Positions 53,502-61,252 of a stretch of DNA of 64,000 nt are shown piece by piece; within the stretch, counting starts at the first letter, position 1; the number at the start of each line of letters is the position of its first letter. A program made the translations under genes and the position numbers. Source of the DNA: Ruegeria profundi (GTDB lineage Bacteria > Pseudomonadota > Alphaproteobacteria > Rhodobacterales > Rhodobacteraceae); contig NZ_LQBP01000002.1 in the NCBI RefSeq assembly GCF_001507545.1, positions 248,001-312,000 on the forward strand, read 5' to 3'. A model generated the notes under the pieces. It worked only from the letters and a program-made list of their open reading frames with translations, was not told where the DNA came from and searched no databases.

Positions 53502-54170
53502 TCAACCAGCTGAAACTCCGATGACAATTGGGTGCAATGTGAAAAGGATTGCAAAAAGAACAACGCCCGCGATCAGGCGCAACAATACCTGCCGCCATGA
53601 TACTGGCTTGTGAAACAGCGGTGCACGATTGATCTGGGCTACAACAGCCCCCCAATTTTCCTCACCCAAGTCACGACGTTTGCGCAGGTCAATTATTTTG
53701 CGTCCAGCGACGGCAAAGCAGCCCAATACGCCAAACAAAAGAACATGCGCAAGATCGCCATTCGGCAGCAGGTGCAACCCGGCCCACAATGCCAAAGCCA
53801 AAAGGATCGGATGTCTTGTAAAGCGCACGATCCCAGGGTGTTGCGGGTCAAACCGTTCGTTTCGGCGACCGCCAAAAGACAAGGGATTGGGTCGACCGAT
53901 ACTCAAGGCCAGGATCAGGCACACCCCAAGCATACCGATCTGCACCATGTGGCGGTGCCACGGATGCTGGGGCCAAAGCTGCACATATGGGGCCTGACCT
54001 GCGGACCAGATCAGCAAGGACAGCATCGCAAGCGACAGGATCGAGTATCCGATACCGAAACCCGCCGAGCCCGTCTGCGCGACGATGCGGGCTTTGACGG
54101 CCGGGCGCACCGGGATCGAATGAGTAACGAAAAACGCGGCAAATATCGCCGCAAAGCCGGTCCAACTCAT
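53502..54170 (-). CDS. nnrU: NnrU family membrane protein
   Basis: A 222-residue membrane protein with five to six helices and the NnrU signature RPNPLSFGG followed by GIVRFTRHPILLALALW. NnrU is required for normal denitrification/NO metabolism in rhodobacteria and rhizobia; its reaction is unknown, and it belongs to the ICMT-like fold. The ATG at 54170 overlaps the nnrS stop (ATGA). It is last in the nor-nnrS-nnrU set. Confidence 0.88.
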   Translation of the reverse strand: MSWTGFAAIFAAFFVTHSIPVRPAVKARIVAQTGSAGFGIGYSILSLAMLSLLIWSAGQAPYVQLWPQHPWHRHMVQIGMLGVCLILALSIGRPNPLSFGGRRNERFDPQHPGIVRFTRHPILLALALWAGLHLLPNGDLAHVLLFGVLGCFAVAGRKIIDLRKRRDLGEENWGAVVAQINRAPLFHKPVSWRQVLLRLIAGVVLFAILFTLHPIVIGVSAG

Positions 54171-55363
54171 GCCCCATCTACCGTTTTGGGTCGCATCAGG
54201 GCGGGGCCGTAAGCCCAGACAAACCCGGCGAATGCGACCAACCACAAGCATCCTGAGATATGGATCATCTCTGGCCAGACAGACGTCAACAGTCGAGTGA
54301 ACACGGATCCGAAAATGCACAAATACACCAGAACGGTCATTCGATTGGCCCTTAGTTCTTGCCCCGTGTGACCCAAAGTGGCCCGGGTCATAACAGACAG
54401 TGTCATGGTACCGATCGCACCAGCCATCCACAAATGCTGTGCTCCTGCAGTGTTGGGGCTACCTAAAATCCGATCAACCCCGATCGCCAGCGCACCCAGC
54501 GGGATCAATAGGTACGACGCGTGTAAAACCCAAACCAACGGTTCGCCAAATGTCTGATGTCCCTGCCATCGAATAAGCCGAACGAAATGCAACACACCGA
54601 GTGCGACCAAAGCTATTGCTGTGAGCAGATCAAAGGGCCTCAGCGTCCAAAGGCCCAAGCCAATAAGGCTCAGCAGAAGGACAGCTTTGTCAAATCTCTG
54701 CATCGGCGGAGCGGGGCGGGCCGGGTTGTGCTGGCGAACAAGCCAGTTGCGCGTGAATGAGGGCACGATGCGGCCACCTATGACTGCGATCATTATGATG
54801 GCGGTGGCAACGCCAAGTCTTAAGCCAACCCCTTGCGCCGCATAGCCACCGGAAAGGGCTTCGTAGTGGAAAATGGCATTGGCGAGGGTAAAGACCGCCA
54901 GCAGAGCCAACACGATCAGGTTGCGCCAGTTTTTGCCTGCAACGATCTCACGAAGGATGACCACGCCAAGAACAACCGAAAGGGACAGGTCGACAATCGG
55001 GGCCAACCAGATTGGCAGGGTCGCTGAGAACAGGATTGCAAACCGCCCGATGACCCAAAGCGCAAACAGCCCTGCTAACCGCAACCCCACAATCGGCAAT
55101 CGCCCGGTCCAGTTCGGCACTGCAGTCAGCAGAAAACCGGCTAGCACAGCACCCAGGTAGCCGAAAAGAAATTCATGCGCGTGCCATGAGATGCTATCAA
55201 ATCTTGTTGGTAAGTCCACTGCGCCCCCCAGCGCCGCGAGCCAAAGCAGCATTGAAACAACCGCCCATACAGCCGCAAACAGAAAGAAGGGCCGAAATCC
55301 AAAGCTAAAGGGTGCCGGGCCTTTCCAGGCGCGCATCTGTTCAGCAGAAGTTTGTGACATCAT
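54167..55363 (-). CDS. nnrS: NnrS family heme-copper membrane protein
   Basis: A 398-residue protein with twelve membrane helices. SFGFRPFFLFAAVWAV near residue 19 and ISWHAHEFLFGYLGAV near 58 carry conserved His residues, and the late MTRATLGHTGQEL segment is typical. NnrS binds heme and copper and protects cells from NO, as shown for homologues. It follows the small secreted peptide gene downstream of norD. With intact NnrR-type regulator, NnrS and NnrU, an NO defence remains even though NO reductase is lost. Confidence 0.93.
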   Translation of the reverse strand: MMSQTSAEQMRAWKGPAPFSFGFRPFFLFAAVWAVVSMLLWLAALGGAVDLPTRFDSISWHAHEFLFGYLGAVLAGFLLTAVPNWTGRLPIVGLRLAGLFALWVIGRFAILFSATLPIWLAPIVDLSLSVVLGVVILREIVAGKNWRNLIVLALLAVFTLANAIFHYEALSGGYAAQGVGLRLGVATAIIMIAVIGGRIVPSFTRNWLVRQHNPARPAPPMQRFDKAVLLLSLIGLGLWTLRPFDLLTAIALVALGVLHFVRLIRWQGHQTFGEPLVWVLHASYLLIPLGALAIGVDRILGSPNTAGAQHLWMAGAIGTMTLSVMTRATLGHTGQELRANRMTVLVYLCIFGSVFTRLLTSVWPEMIHISGCLWLVAFAGFVWAYGPALMRPKTVDGA

Positions 55364-55419: not shown

Positions 55420-55578
55420 TTAGGTCGGACGCCACACGTATCGGTCTTCATCTTTGAGTTCCAGTGTCTGCAACATCCATTGGGTTGCGGATTGCGCCTG
55501 CGGAATTGGCCCGTCGAAGGTTTCGGCAAATGCCAGTGACGCGAATAGTACGGCGACGCAAAATAATAAGCTGCGCAT
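55420..55578 (-). CDS. Small secreted protein between norD and nnrS
   Basis: A 52-residue precursor: signal peptide of about 18 residues (MRSLLFCVAVLFASLAFA) and a short mature part of 34 residues with ATQWMLQTLELKDEDRYVW. It begins two bases after the norD stop, with AGGAGACC eleven bases ahead, so it is in the operon. I do not recognise it. Length and position suggest a small subunit or assembly peptide of a membrane complex, or an NorE-locus remnant. Confidence 0.6.
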   Translation of the reverse strand: MRSLLFCVAVLFASLAFAETFDGPIPQAQSATQWMLQTLELKDEDRYVWRPT

Positions 55579-55579
55579 G

Positions 55580-57187
55580 TCAGGTCTCCTGTGTGAGTGT
55601 TCGGTAGATTTCCGGCAGCGCCCGCGACAGGCGCTCGGGGTTTGGCAAAAGCGTGAAATCACCGCACCCAAAGATTTGCGCAAACCAATCCTGCCCGTCT
55701 TCGTCGATGATCACGCTATGCAAACTCTGGCCGGCGGTCCGGGCTTCGCGCACGGCCATATGGCTGTCTCCGATACCGTGCTGGCCCTCGTAGTGATCAA
55801 GATCGTTGGGTTTACCGTCCGTCAGCACGATCAGCAGTTTGCGGGCGCTTGGCTCCTTGGTAAGCTGTGTACTGACATGTCGGATGGCTGCGCCAAGACG
55901 GAAATAGTGGCCGGGCTTCAACGCCCCGATCGCGCTGGTCACATTGGTACCCATCTTTTCTTCAATCCCCTTGCAGCGCGTCAGAAACACGCGATTGCGC
56001 CGCAGAGACGAAAACCCCCAAATCGCTGAGCGGTCCACCTGTCGCGTGGCTTGCCAGATACGATCAGCCCCGCGTCCGGTGGCCAATAAATCCGCGCGCG
56101 CGGTCAGCAGGGCATCAAGATCAAGCTCTTGCCCATTAATCTGGCGCGGTTGAAGCACCCGCCGCGGGCGAAGCGCCTCAAACTGCCGACGCACAGCGCG
56201 AAAATATCGGTCATTCGGGGCAAACTGTGGCCGTTCAGACTGTATCGGCCCCTCAAGAACCCGGCAGTGATCCTGCATAAAGCTACGAGTTCGGTGGTTC
56301 CATTCCGGGTATGTATATTCGCCCGCCAACGCTTCGTGATCTGCATCGGCGGGCGACAGATCAAGATGCAGCCTCAGGCGTGTCGCGGTCTTTCGGCTGT
56401 GCTGGTCCTGATCTTTCCGCTCGCCGAGCTTGCGGCGACTGAGTGACGCCGATGGAGCCGGCGCGGGTTGCTCTGTATCTGCCTCAGGCGCAGCGCTTCC
56501 GCCTTGTCCCGGAGCTTCAACTCGCAACCAGATTGGCACTGGTGCAAATGGCATGAAACTGCGGGTTGTGCTTGCAGTTTTACCAAAGTTCAGCACATCA
56601 CCGCCCAGCTGCATGCGAATTGCCTTTTCGATCGACGTTTCTTGTGCGGGTCGATGCAAATCCGGTCGCGTCTTGGCGCAATAGGCCGCCATCTCTGCAT
56701 AGTCTGCGCGCAGACCCGGGCAACTTTTAAAAACGGCATCCGCCGCTTGGGCGTTTGCGTGGATCTGAGCATAATCCTGGGCTGGTCCAGCACCTGTAAG
56801 GTCCAAGGTCGCAAGCTCGGTTTTGGCGGCAAGGGCAGTCAGCCAGAAATACGCCGCGCGGTTCAGCCTGGGGTCGGGAAACGCATCCATAACCGGAGGA
56901 AGGTATAGCTTTTCGCTATCGTATTGTGCCACATATTCAAGGTCACGTTCTGCCCCCAACTTACGCTTGGGTGGCTGCCGATGTCGCACCAGCGTCGCGG
57001 CAGCCTCTCCGATTTCAACCCCGCCAGAGCCACCAAGTGCACGGAAAAGAACCGCCAGGCTGGGGCGCACAGATGCCAATTCCACACGCGCCGAGGGAAA
57101 GCGCGTCTCAGTTCCAATCCCACTTGCCATATCGTGCCAGAGGTTGCCGATCGTTCCCTCTGGCTGCATGAGATCAACGAGACGCAT
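55580..57187 (-). CDS. norD: NorD with internal deletion in the VWA domain
   Basis: A 535-residue NorD-like protein, where the family is usually about 620-640. The N-terminus (LDLMxPE-type LVDLMQPEGTIGNLWHD) and C-terminus (LLIVLTDGKPNDLDHYEG...DEDGQDWFAQIFG) are well kept. At residue about 386 the sequence jumps from RIWQATRQVDR to AIWGFSSLRR; the roughly 45 residues that normally lie between, including the DxSxS metal (MIDAS) motif, are absent without loss of frame. The protein therefore cannot form a normal VWA metal site. In intact operons NorD and NorQ help to activate NorCB. Confidence 0.85.
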   Translation of the reverse strand: MRLVDLMQPEGTIGNLWHDMASGIGTETRFPSARVELASVRPSLAVLFRALGGSGGVEIGEAAATLVRHRQPPKRKLGAERDLEYVAQYDSEKLYLPPVMDAFPDPRLNRAAYFWLTALAAKTELATLDLTGAGPAQDYAQIHANAQAADAVFKSCPGLRADYAEMAAYCAKTRPDLHRPAQETSIEKAIRMQLGGDVLNFGKTASTTRSFMPFAPVPIWLRVEAPGQGGSAAPEADTEQPAPAPSASLSRRKLGERKDQDQHSRKTATRLRLHLDLSPADADHEALAGEYTYPEWNHRTRSFMQDHCRVLEGPIQSERPQFAPNDRYFRAVRRQFEALRPRRVLQPRQINGQELDLDALLTARADLLATGRGADRIWQATRQVDRSAIWGFSSLRRNRVFLTRCKGIEEKMGTNVTSAIGALKPGHYFRLGAAIRHVSTQLTKEPSARKLLIVLTDGKPNDLDHYEGQHGIGDSHMAVREARTAGQSLHSVIIDEDGQDWFAQIFGCGDFTLLPNPERLSRALPEIYRTLTQET

Positions 57188-57192
57188 CCGAC

Positions 57193-57600
57193 CTATCCGT
57201 AGACAGCCAGAACAAGATCACGCAACGCCTGCTGTACATCTGGCTCGTCGCTCAGCTGAGGTTGGGCTGCGATGCCGTTTGGTTGCGACTCGATCCAACC
57301 TTTCAGGATATCAAAGGCATCTTCGGGACTGTCTTGAACGCCCCACGGGGTCATGACGTTTTCGAGTTCGGGCGCTAAATACGCGCCCTCTCCGTGGAGG
57401 CTGTGGCAATTGATGCAGGAGTGTATTTCCCAAATGTGTTTGCCGTGAACGACCACATCACTCAACTCCATCCCCGAGGTTGACGTGCTGACGACATACC
57501 GGTGGGATTGAACGGTCAGGGTCACGAAAACCACGACAAAAAAGATCGAGCCTCCGTCGCAAATGTTGTGCGCGCACGATTTCGTTAAGATTTCCGCCAT
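57193..57600 (-). pseudogene. norC: norC-norQ deletion fusion (norC 5' part joined to norQ 3' end)
   Basis: Residues 1-110 are NorC: MAEILTKS, one membrane anchor, and the heme site CINCH at 62-66, followed by WGVQDSPEDAFDILKGW. After QPNGI (about 57270) the sequence turns into DEPDVQQALRDLVLAVYG, the typical C-terminus of NorQ/CbbQ ATPases. norB and nearly all of norQ, normally between them, are missing. The 135-codon frame stays open. Several usually conserved NorC residues are changed (SCAHNICDGG near residue 8), suggesting relaxed selection. GCAAAGGTAAGC precedes the ATG at 57600. Confidence 0.82.
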
Positions 57601-57924
57601 TAGCTTACCTTTGCGGGCAAGGAATGGGGAATAATTAGCCGGTGGCAATCGGACCAAGTTTGCGCAAGCGCAATGTTCTGATGATTTCCTTGCCCAAGTA
57701 TTCGACAAGGAAGAGAGGTCTATGCACAACCAAGCTTGGAATATTCCGATCTGTTCTTGGAAAGTATAATGCCGTGCCGTCCGTAAACAGTTGCCTTGTT
57801 CATGCGGCATTCGACGCTGTGTGTGCTGTTTGATAAGTCCCTTTCAAACGAACGCTGAAGCGCATTGCGAATACGCCGTGAATGATGATGCGTTTCTGCC
57901 CGAGTTATGGGAAGCAACGGAACT
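57601..57924. other. Promoter region of the nor remnant and end of the Crp/Fnr gene
   Basis: About 320 bp with no supported gene. It holds the NnrR-type box at 57660-57673. The rest has no recognisable element; open frames here lack ribosome sites and homologous motifs. Confidence 0.5.
57660..57673. promoter_or_regulatory. NnrR/DNR-type Fnr-family box upstream of norC
   Basis: TTGCG-CAAG-CGCAA, a perfect palindrome in its arms. It has the Fnr-family spacing (5-4-5) with the TTGCG arm reported for NnrR targets in Rhodobacter. It lies 60 bp upstream of the norC start on the minus strand. Its persistence in front of a broken operon is notable. Confidence 0.7.
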
Positions 57925-58650
57925 CTACTCTATTCTGGCCTCACTGATTGCGGCCAAAGCACGCGGATCAAGAACCTTGATCCTTTTTCGGCGGCTTTCA
58001 ACCATCCCCTTCTTTTCCCACGCACTAAGCAGGCGACTGACAGTATGCAGGGTGGTTGCGGTCATTTCCGAAAGATCCTGCCGCGTGATCGGAAAATCGA
58101 TCTCGATCCCGTCAGGGACTTTACGGCCGGTCTGATGGATAAGGCGCAGCAGCGCACTGGCGACGCGTTGTTCAACCTGCAAGGTTGAGATTTCGACAAC
58201 CCGATTGTTTATCTCACCCAGACGGGTTCCAACGGTCTTGTAGGTTTCGGTCGAAAAGCCTTCATATTCTGCTGCGAACGTTTCCCAAAGCCGCATGGGC
58301 CAACTCAACGCGATGCTTTCGGTTGCCGTTATCGCCGTCGCTGGATAGGTCTGCCGCCCAATCGCCTTGGCAAAACCCATCAATTGTCCCGCTGGAATGT
58401 GTAGTGCAGTGACCTGTTCACCTGTCGGCGTAACCCTGACGACGCGAACATATCCATCAAGCAACAAATAAAATCGTTCGGCCGGCGCATCTTCTTCAAA
58501 GATTGCGGTACCAGGTTCGTATCGGCGTGAGCTTGCCTGATCAAGGATCGTGCGCAGCTGTCGGCGCTCCAGTTTTGAAAAGGGCGGCAGATGCGTCAGC
58601 AGGCTTTCGTCAAGCTGCGGCAAGGTCTTGCGCGTCGGTAGGTCGTTCAT
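57925..58650 (-). CDS. nnrR: Crp/Fnr-family regulator, probable NnrR
   Basis: A 241-residue Crp/Fnr regulator: cyclic-nucleotide-binding-like fold (about residues 20-130), dimer helix, and C-terminal helix-turn-helix (ITRQDLSEMTATTLHTVSRLLSAWEKKG, about 188-215). It has no N-terminal Fnr-type cysteine cluster, so it is not an oxygen sensor of the Fnr type. It fits the NnrR/DNR class, which senses NO through heme. Located next to the nor remnant with an NnrR-like box between, it is the probable regulator of nor and nnrS. Confidence 0.85.
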   Translation of the reverse strand: MNDLPTRKTLPQLDESLLTHLPPFSKLERRQLRTILDQASSRRYEPGTAIFEEDAPAERFYLLLDGYVRVVRVTPTGEQVTALHIPAGQLMGFAKAIGRQTYPATAITATESIALSWPMRLWETFAAEYEGFSTETYKTVGTRLGEINNRVVEISTLQVEQRVASALLRLIHQTGRKVPDGIEIDFPITRQDLSEMTATTLHTVSRLLSAWEKKGMVESRRKRIKVLDPRALAAISEARIE

Positions 58651-59040
58651 GAACCGCCTATGCCACAACATCCGGGCTAGTGGCCACTAAATCTCACCGA
58701 TCCCACCCGGGCATGACGCCGCAAGACATTTGTTCCAGAACAGTACCCGCTTGCGAAAATGCCTATGGATCAGCCCGAGAAGCCACAGCCAAAAAGTTAC
58801 CACAGTGTTTATGACAGCTTTGGCAAGTATCTGGTTTGTTGCATCTCTGCCAAGCGTGCCATTTTGTCACCGCTTGTCTCAACGTTGAAGGCGACCAACG
58901 CCGCCTGGACAAAGCTCTATATGCCGACCTCACCTAATCGGCGCGCACGTCAGACGTTTGAGACAGCGCAACCTGATTTTCAAGGCTTATCGCAACTTCA
59001 CGATTGACAATTCGCAGTAGATACAGTCAATTTTCGCGCG
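58651..59040. other. Intergenic stretch before the cobalamin riboswitch
   Basis: About 390 bp without a convincing gene. An open plus-strand frame at 58759-59007 (82 codons) lacks a ribosome site and motif. The promoter for the B12 operon should lie near the right end. I see no other structure. Confidence 0.5.
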
Positions 59041-59215
59041 TTCTGGTCCGGGTGGGATTCCATCCGGATAATAGGGAACGGGGTGCGGCCATTGCGCCAA
59101 TTCCTCGACTGCCCCCGCAACTGTAAGCGGTGAGCTTTGCCGGCACATGCCACTGTCCTAAAAGGGATGGGAAGGCCCGGTTTGGCGTCGATCCGAGAGT
59201 CAGGAGACCTGCCAG
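59041..59215 (+). ncRNA. Cobalamin riboswitch aptamer
   Basis: The usual conserved blocks appear in order: GGTCCGGGTGGGATTCC region at the 5' end, AATAGGGAA, the GCCCCCGCAACTGTAAGCGG stretch (59111-59130), the B12 box GCCACTG (59149-59155), GGGATGGGAAGGC (59164-59175) and GAGAGTCAGGAGACCTGCC (59195-59213). This is a classical adenosylcobalamin-sensing element. It lies 168 bp before btuB and should switch off the uptake operon when cobalamin is abundant. Confidence 0.95.
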
Positions 59216-59290
59216 AGCGATCACCCTGTCCGGACGCGGGGCGCGTCTTTGGCAACGGTCTATCCGTAGCGGTGACATTTCGCCGTCTGC

Positions 59291-59383: not shown

Positions 59384-61252
59384 ATGAAGAAAACCGCCTT
59401 ACTGAAAGCGTCAGCCGCGACAGTTTTTGCAGTTGCCACGTCTGCCCACGCGCAAGAAACGATTGATATCGGAACAATCGTGATTTCCGGGGGCTTCACA
59501 CCCATTGAAGAACAGAAATACGGCCGTGCAGCCAGTGTGATTACCTCGCAGGAGATCGAGCAGCGTGGTATCACGACAGTGCAAGACGCCCTGCGGGCTG
59601 TTCCGGGTGTGTCCGTCAGCGGATCAGGTGATGCCTTGACGCAAGTTCGAATCCGGGGCGCCGAAGCCAACCATACGCTGATCCTGATTAACGGCGTTCC
59701 GGCAGCCGGCGGTGACGGAGAATACATCCTGTCCGGCATTCAGACGGCCAATATTGAACGCATCGAGGTTTTGCGCGGCCCGCAATCCGTTTTCTATGGT
59801 TCGAATGCTTCGGCTGGTGTGATCAACATCATCACCAAGCGAGGCGGGCTGGGTCACGAATATGGTGGCACGGTTGAATTTGGTGACGGGTACAACGCGT
59901 CCGCCCGGTATTCCTATCGTAACGATAAAGGCGGCGTCGCTGTCGGTATCGCGCGGCTGGACGATGACGGATATGACTACTCCGGCAGCAATGGGGAAAG
60001 AGACAGTGTTGACCGCACCACGATTGACCTGACCGGAGATTATTTTGTTGCCGAAGGTCTGAAACTTGGGTTTGTGTTTCGCGACTCAGATGAAAACTAT
60101 GACTTCGACAGCACAGACTTCCTGGCCACCACCCCCGAGGGCTACGTCGTAGACGATCCTACCCAACGGTCTGAGCGGAAGGAGCGGCTTGGTCAAGTCT
60201 ACGCCGAATACGAGGCACGAGGAGGTCAAATGGTTCACCGTTTCAGCTATGATCGGACGGATAACGAACAATCTACCAATGGTGGCACACCGACCGAAAC
60301 GGATCGGGACTCGGCCCGCTATCTTCTCAGCCTCGGCCTGGATGGGCGCGCGACGGTTGACAGCAACCACTTGCTGAACGGAATTGTGGAATGGGAAGAG
60401 GACAGCAGTTCCTCTGATCCCGAGTTTGAGCGCGAAACAACATCATACGCGCTGGAATATCGGGGATCGCTGCAGAATGGGCTGAATGTTCAGGCCGGCA
60501 TCCGGTACGACGACAACAAAACGTTCCAGAATGATTTCACCTGGACACTGGCGGCGTCTTACACTCTGCCTCAAGGCGTACGTTTGCATGGATCGGCCGG
60601 GACAGGCATCGTCAATCCATCTTACTTCGAATTGTTTGCCGACTCTTTTGGATTTGTCGGCAACCCGAACCTGAAACCCGAGAAAAACAAGTCTTTCGAT
60701 CTGGGTGCCGAAGTGCCGTTTTGGGCCGGACGCGGATTGGTTGATGTGACCCTGTTTCACGACGATCTAACTGATGAGATCACGGCGGTCTTCGATCCGG
60801 TTTTGGGTAGTTCGACCTTCATCAACCAAGCCGGGGACAGTACTCGCCGCGGGGTCGAGGTTTCGGGCACGCTTGAGGCGACAGACACGCTCGATCTGCG
60901 TCTGAGCTACACCTATATCGACGCGGAAAACCCGGATGGATCGGTGGAAGTTCGCCGCCCCCGGCACGAATTATTGCTGACCGCAACGCAAGAGTTCCTG
61001 CAAGGGCGTGGGTCTGTAACCGGCGATATTCGTTATGTGGCGGACAATTACGACACGCAGTTCTTCGGTAGCTTTGAAACGAAAAAACTGCCCGACTACG
61101 TAACCGTTGATGTTGCGGCGCAGTATTCGCTGACCGACAACGTTAAACTGACTGGTCGTATCGTTAACCTGTTCGACCGAGAATATTCCGACGTCTGGGG
61201 TTTCGCCAAACGCGGGCGCACCGGTTATATCGGCCTGAGCGCGGCGTTTTAA
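59384..61252 (+). CDS. btuB: TonB-dependent cobalamin receptor BtuB
   Basis: A 622-residue outer-membrane receptor of the BtuB length class. Signal peptide about residues 1-23 (AHAQ), a weak TonB box (DIGTIVISGG), plug domain about 30-150 with LINGVPAAGGDG and IERIEVLRGPQSVFYGSNASAGVINI, then a beta-barrel ending in GYIGLSAAF with the terminal Phe needed for insertion. It brings corrinoids across the outer membrane using TonB energy. It is controlled by the cobalamin riboswitch upstream, and btuF starts three bases after its stop. Confidence 0.95.
   Translation: MKKTALLKASAATVFAVATSAHAQETIDIGTIVISGGFTPIEEQKYGRAASVITSQEIEQRGITTVQDALRAVPGVSVSGSGDALTQVRIRGAEANHTLILINGVPAAGGDGEYILSGIQTANIERIEVLRGPQSVFYGSNASAGVINIITKRGGLGHEYGGTVEFGDGYNASARYSYRNDKGGVAVGIARLDDDGYDYSGSNGERDSVDRTTIDLTGDYFVAEGLKLGFVFRDSDENYDFDSTDFLATTPEGYVVDDPTQRSERKERLGQVYAEYEARGGQMVHRFSYDRTDNEQSTNGGTPTETDRDSARYLLSLGLDGRATVDSNHLLNGIVEWEEDSSSSDPEFERETTSYALEYRGSLQNGLNVQAGIRYDDNKTFQNDFTWTLAASYTLPQGVRLHGSAGTGIVNPSYFELFADSFGFVGNPNLKPEKNKSFDLGAEVPFWAGRGLVDVTLFHDDLTDEITAVFDPVLGSSTFINQAGDSTRRGVEVSGTLEATDTLDLRLSYTYIDAENPDGSVEVRRPRHELLLTATQEFLQGRGSVTGDIRYVADNYDTQFFGSFETKKLPDYVTVDVAAQYSLTDNVKLTGRIVNLFDREYSDVWGFAKRGRTGYIGLSAAF

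Follow-up and report, generated by a model that had tools for sequence, protein, structure and literature searches.

The window, the whole stretch of 64,000 nucleotides analysed here, contains on its minus strand an open reading frame of 135 codons (57193-57600; ATG at 57600, stop at 57195-57193) in which norC and norQ have been joined by an in-frame deletion. This norC'-'norQ fusion is very probably a stub without function, judging from its sequence, and we are confident that it belongs to a lineage-specific decay of the cNOR module, next to which the regulator, nnrS and nnrU look intact. In the closest-type layout among relatives, a divergent nirV-nirK pair is followed by a Crp/Fnr regulator, norC, norB, norQ, norD, small genes, nnrS and nnrU, and relatives outside this type vary around norCBQD. 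Measured against this layout, nirK-nirV are absent from the locus, a gap of about 2.2 kb reaches from the final part of norC to that of norQ, norD lacks two stretches, and the small genes are for the most part missing.

The first 110 codons of the fusion (57271-57600, minus strand) derive from norC and encode the membrane anchor and the start of the cytochrome c, as indicated by tblastn to relatives and by phmmer alignments that begin at residue 1 of the frame, both with the NorC-like chain 4xyd_B (E 5.8e-46) and with NorC 3o0r_C (E 1e-21). In a comparison with 14 hand-picked relatives, this part is 83.6% identical to its counterpart in Roseovarius sp. MMSF_3281 (L042). The heme c motif CINCH at codons 62-66 (57403-57417) is intact, as it is in 64 of 64 relatives. 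Comparison with the relatives' norC and norQ DNA assigns the junction zone, codons 111-115 (57256-57270), to neither gene, and codons 116-135 with the stop (57193-57255) derive from norQ. Residues 245-264 of the NorQ of L034 match these codons with 80% identity in tblastn, and the tail matches the norQ end in five of the six relatives' loci tested (70-80% identity, E 4e-7 to 4e-5), L040 being the locus without a match. Aligned without gaps, residues 116-135 share on average 16.1 of 20 positions with 65 NorQ tails (best 18, worst 11) but at most 3 of 20 with the same residues of 64 NorC proteins, which excludes a chance match of the tail. norD starts 5 bases past the fusion stop, the same gap as between norQ and norD in L034. 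If codon 116 is taken as the junction, the DNA missing relative to L034 amounts to 2205 bp, a multiple of three. The preliminary description of this DNA had proposed just such a deletion, with a NorC part of 110 codons bearing an intact CINCH and with norD directly behind the fusion, and all of these points are upheld; its identification of the NorQ tail also stands, but not its starting point, which it had set at codon 111.

norC, norB, norQ and norD stand in this order in 64 of the 65 related loci fetched, and the remaining one (L100) is a contig whose start falls within norQ, confirming the earlier supposition that norB and most of norQ normally lie between the two breakpoints. L100, thus cut, and apparently also L037, judged by a shorter match, have a norQ frame of 161 codons compared with about 264 in relatives; in L037 this may be a frameshift or an artefact of start choice. 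The fusion in its full length has no match among the other 147 relatives or among the 59 loci of a further comparison; both sets hold one genome per species, and the 59-locus set may omit records lying especially close to that of the window.

The junction also costs NorC a conserved Met. Positions 116-117 are Met-Pro in the NorC of 64 of 64 relatives, each 150 codons long, whereas the fusion carries a NorQ-derived Leu116. We take the conserved Met116 to be the sixth ligand of heme c, equivalent to Met112 of P. aeruginosa NorC; a literature search on the Met ligand of the NorC heme c returned no statement of the ligand. Compared with NorC of the cNOR structures (PDB 4xyd and 3o0r), the fusion shares the membrane anchor and the CxxCH motif but lacks this Met, the NorC C-terminus and a NorB partner. 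Heme could still be attached to the product, although its iron would be coordinated differently and there would be no NorB to serve; at most, the product would be a membrane-anchored stub unable to do the job of NorC because both the partner and the Met ligand are missing. Likewise, of NorQ, a MoxR AAA+ ATPase, only the last 20 residues persist, while the entire ATPase core (AAA_5) and the CbbQ_C domain are gone, and no CbbQ_C match was found in the genome.

The neighboring norD (55580-57187, minus strand) is damaged independently of the fusion, its 535 codons comparing with 606-647 in 65 relatives. Alignment with 8 of these 65 relatives places two in-frame deletions, one of 50 codons at about 56395, corresponding to residues 265-314 of L034, and one of 44 codons at about 56035, corresponding to residues 435-478. 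Alignment with the NorD of the cNOR maturation pair still holds for the N-terminal domain and for what is left of the VWA domain, but the second deletion takes the DTSRS stretch, that is, the DxSxS part of the MIDAS (DxSxS-T-D), leaving the second half of the VWA domain in place. Exchanges of MIDAS residues in P. denitrificans NorD are reported to abolish cNOR activity (PMC9976466). The first deletion removes linker codons; the linker is given as residues 242-393 in the numbering of J. thermophila NorD, and all linker deletions tested in P. denitrificans NorD are reported to yield a non-functional cNOR without FeB (PMC13036017). The shortened NorD would thus probably be unable to mature an NO reductase.

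A TTG-N8-CAA box (TTGCGCAAGCGCAA on the plus strand; 57660-57673), presumably the site of a Crp/Fnr-type regulator, lies 73 bases before the fusion ATG, within the range of -71 to -75 seen in the 21 relatives listed; the promoter box has therefore survived, as described earlier. The window stretch yielded no TTGAT-N4-ATCAA box, and the norD-nnrS gap holds no TTG-N8-CAA box in the window or in the 21 relatives listed. The order of regulator, norC and norD and, where listed, the box position are the same as in the norCBQD operons of Roseovarius sp. MMSF_3281 and Roseovarius sp. 217 (L051), but in the window norB is missing, norC has lost its end and norQ most of its length, norD is cut, and nirK-nirV are not at the locus. 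The Crp/Fnr-family regulator (57925-58671, minus strand), identified by Pfam, is full length. On the other side, the small-gene remnant after norD (55420-55578, minus strand), recognized by comparison with relatives, keeps the first part of one small gene without its end, the next gene is missing, and the norD-nnrS gap has shrunk to 219 bp compared with 424-673 bp in the 21 relatives. nnrS (54167-55363, minus strand; Pfam NnrS, 371.7 bits) is full length, and nnrU (53502-54170, minus strand; start codon inferred) matches nearly the whole Pfam NnrU profile at 163.3 bits. At E 1, queries with nirK and nirV found no match in the window. In the place that nirK-nirV occupy in closest-type relatives, the window has a cobalamin riboswitch (RF00174, 133.1 bits; 59027-59230, plus strand) and past it, at 59384, a gene that by eye resembles a TonB-dependent receptor. 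Two observations concern the comparison loci themselves. The nnrU of L034 (12008-12357 of the reversed locus) matches only in two separate pieces and may itself be broken or carry a deletion. L096 (JAFKDC010000020.1), titled Enemella evansiae, which is an actinobacterium, and L038 (G055:C20) both come from contigs of 117129 with the same nor cluster; G055 is placed in the window's own family, and the title of L096 looks mislabelled or its assembly mixed.

No NorB was found elsewhere in the genome, a draft of 33 contigs for which 100% completeness and 0.08% contamination are listed. The NorB of L034 as query gave no genome match at E 1e-60 or better, and no norB remnant was detected within the window at E 1; the Pfam models applied here do recognize both the NorB (248.8 bits) and the NorQ of L034. 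We considered whether a NorB or a qNOR might reside elsewhere, and rejected this possibility, since the three COX1-family genes in the genome, scored as partial sequences, have CtaD, CyoB and CcoN as their best models (CcoN alone above the cut-off) and the NorB query has no match. The claim that the catalytic subunit of NO reductase is absent thus holds for the draft genome. No NirK was found above the cut-off in the genome, the best candidate being a weak, multicopper-oxidase-like frame at 25.5 bits; cytochrome cd1 was not found there, NosZ was not found by the one model used (TIGR04244), and NapA did not reach its cut-off (best 125.6 bits, with 930.55 required). A globin of the PF00042 type as substitute NO scavenger was likewise rejected, as the genome contains no such globin. 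NCBIfam models provided no name for the fusion, norD, nnrS or the relative's NorB.

Within a family sample of 395 genomes, NorC and NorB each have a match in 106, and both occur together in 105. The window's genome is the only one of the 106 NorC-bearing genomes without NorB; thus, no other genome in this sample is seen to retain NorC by itself. The converse case, NorB without NorC, is a fragment at a contig start in G219. In G176 (C36:19230-19561), the NorC match consists of two overlapping pieces, one with an internal TAA, next to an intact NorB, which may reflect a broken gene or a sequencing error. Among the congeners, 46 of 53 bear a NorC, but the window's type occurs only in G046 and G002 (73 and 70% identity), the remaining 44 having a NorC of a 50-53% type; the nor type of the window may have been acquired separately. 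NorC matches were also found in 234 plasmid records, and among the 40 of these listed, identity does not exceed 66.7% and no match extends past query residue 129. None of the 20 near plasmid records listed, out of 39, covers the nor genes.

To the structural losses, conserved sites add a second line of evidence. Using 31 closest-type relatives hand-picked from the synteny list, with columns dropped where any row had a gap or where norC passed codon 110, 7 of 58 otherwise invariant sites are broken in the NorC part (relatives: mean 0.10, maximum 1), including R9C, R11H, F14C and Y15D in and before the membrane helix. norD has 12 of 170 sites broken (31 relatives: mean 1.74, maximum 13 in L085, which shows no gross deletion), compared with 1 of 88 in the crp regulator (30 relatives, rows of at least 260 codons dropped: mean 0.83, maximum 9) and 1 of 110 in nnrS (28 relatives: mean 0.86, maximum 6). 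Wider sets, from which nnrS rows of at most 380 codons and L096 as a near duplicate of L038 were removed, give 6/44 for norC, 6/83 for norD, 0/51 for crp and 0/59 for nnrS; in the wider set L040 breaks 20 norD sites. The contrast is weaker in the set of 14 hand-picked relatives (norC 10/71, norD 21/257, crp 6/118, nnrS 4/139), and no conserved site of the NorQ tail is broken. In these comparisons, norC shows the greatest loss of constraint, norD shows it as well, and the flanking crp and nnrS show none. Codon models on the 14 relatives do not mirror this pattern. On the window branch, omega is 0.043 for norC against 0.069 in the background (2 delta lnL 1.6; an omega of 1 is worse by about 66), 0.069 against 0.086 for norD (1.2) and 0.050 against 0.091 for nnrS (7.3); crp is the sole gene with a rise (0.096 against 0.041; 8.7). 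The optimiser iterations were limited, and branch lengths of 2.7 to 6.5 point to saturated synonymous change; the branch-wide omega therefore mostly reports the time before the loss. Of the usual marks of a pseudogene, changed conserved sites are present, while raised dN/dS, stops and frameshifts are absent, both frames being open. The suggestion that altered conserved residues point to relaxed selection is therefore sustained for the changes themselves but finds no echo in omega.

The preliminary description had considered the deletion possibly very recent. This is unsupported: in BLAST comparisons of rpoB covering 50 of the 54 genus genomes, the window's own included, the nearest of 49 congeners has 94.3% identity, so that the loss may have occurred anywhere on a long branch, and pieces of norD, small genes and nirK-nirV were lost as well. 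An rpoB tree built with FastTree was set aside, since a branch length of 1.33 in it hints that the orientation of its rows was mixed.

The draft state of the genome invites the idea that norB-norQ collapsed or dropped out during assembly at the junction. We regard this as extremely unlikely because the separate deletions in norD and the separate substitutions in norC and norD agree with a loss of function; moreover, no NorB was found anywhere in a genome listed as complete, and at the two breakpoints the relatives' sequences share short similarity but no long repeat. Nor does it seem at all probable that the fusion has been re-purposed as a membrane-anchored cytochrome c with a new role. The intact CINCH motif, membrane anchor, box and frame would fit such a role, as would the low branch-wide omega, but the loss of Met116, the broken invariant sites (some of them in and before the membrane helix), the lack of any other NorC retained without NorB among the 106 NorC-bearing genomes and the lack of a whole-fusion match in the 147 relatives and 59 loci compared all oppose it. 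The earlier proposal of a cytochrome c kept for another purpose thus gains no footing, the Met behind the heme motif being lost and this genome being the only one without NorB among the NorC-bearing ones of the family sample.

Decay of the module also has to accommodate its open frames. None of the three coding deletions in norC-norQ and norD shifts the frame, and neither a stop nor any other frameshift is present, which weakly suggests selection for open frames. As a refinement of the decay explanation, one that we hold doubtful but deserving of some weight, the dead norC'-'norQ and norD frames could be kept open as a translated leader, thereby avoiding polarity on nnrS-nnrU. The position of the box before norC, with none in the norD-nnrS gap, fits this, as nnrS may then depend on the norC promoter. 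When neutral change is simulated on the 14 relatives up to the observed number of broken invariant sites, 0.74-0.81 nonsense hits are expected in norC and 1.63-1.74 in norD, and the joint chance of none is 0.09-0.10. Multiplied by 1/27 for the deletions, this becomes small, but the product is post hoc. Furthermore, the simulation puts all broken sites in the neutral phase and hence overstates the expected stops, since crp and nnrS also break sites in the 14-relative set. The shared transcript is putative, and a different kind of promoter may serve nnrS.

Under decay of the cNOR module, the regulator and its box probably still work, serving nnrS-nnrU as a response to NO stress, and norC'-'norQ and norD would then be mainly leader sequence of the nnrS-nnrU transcript. 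In Phaeobacter inhibens, nnrS has been suggested to relieve NO stress, and deletion of the nor operon is reported to have had no detectable effect on growth under nitrite or NO (PMC10356946), indicating that such a loss can be tolerated. Among the titles found in a literature search on truncated or lost denitrification genes, none describes a norC'-'norQ fusion, although this does not prove the fusion to be unpublished. If the open frames are indeed selected, the locus would offer a testable example of polarity shaping operon decay. If norC and norD were annotated here, the strain would be mistaken for an NO reducer; the locus instead shows the stepwise dismantling of a denitrification module, in which NirK, cytochrome cd1 and NorB were not found and the regulator, nnrS and nnrU remain at full length.
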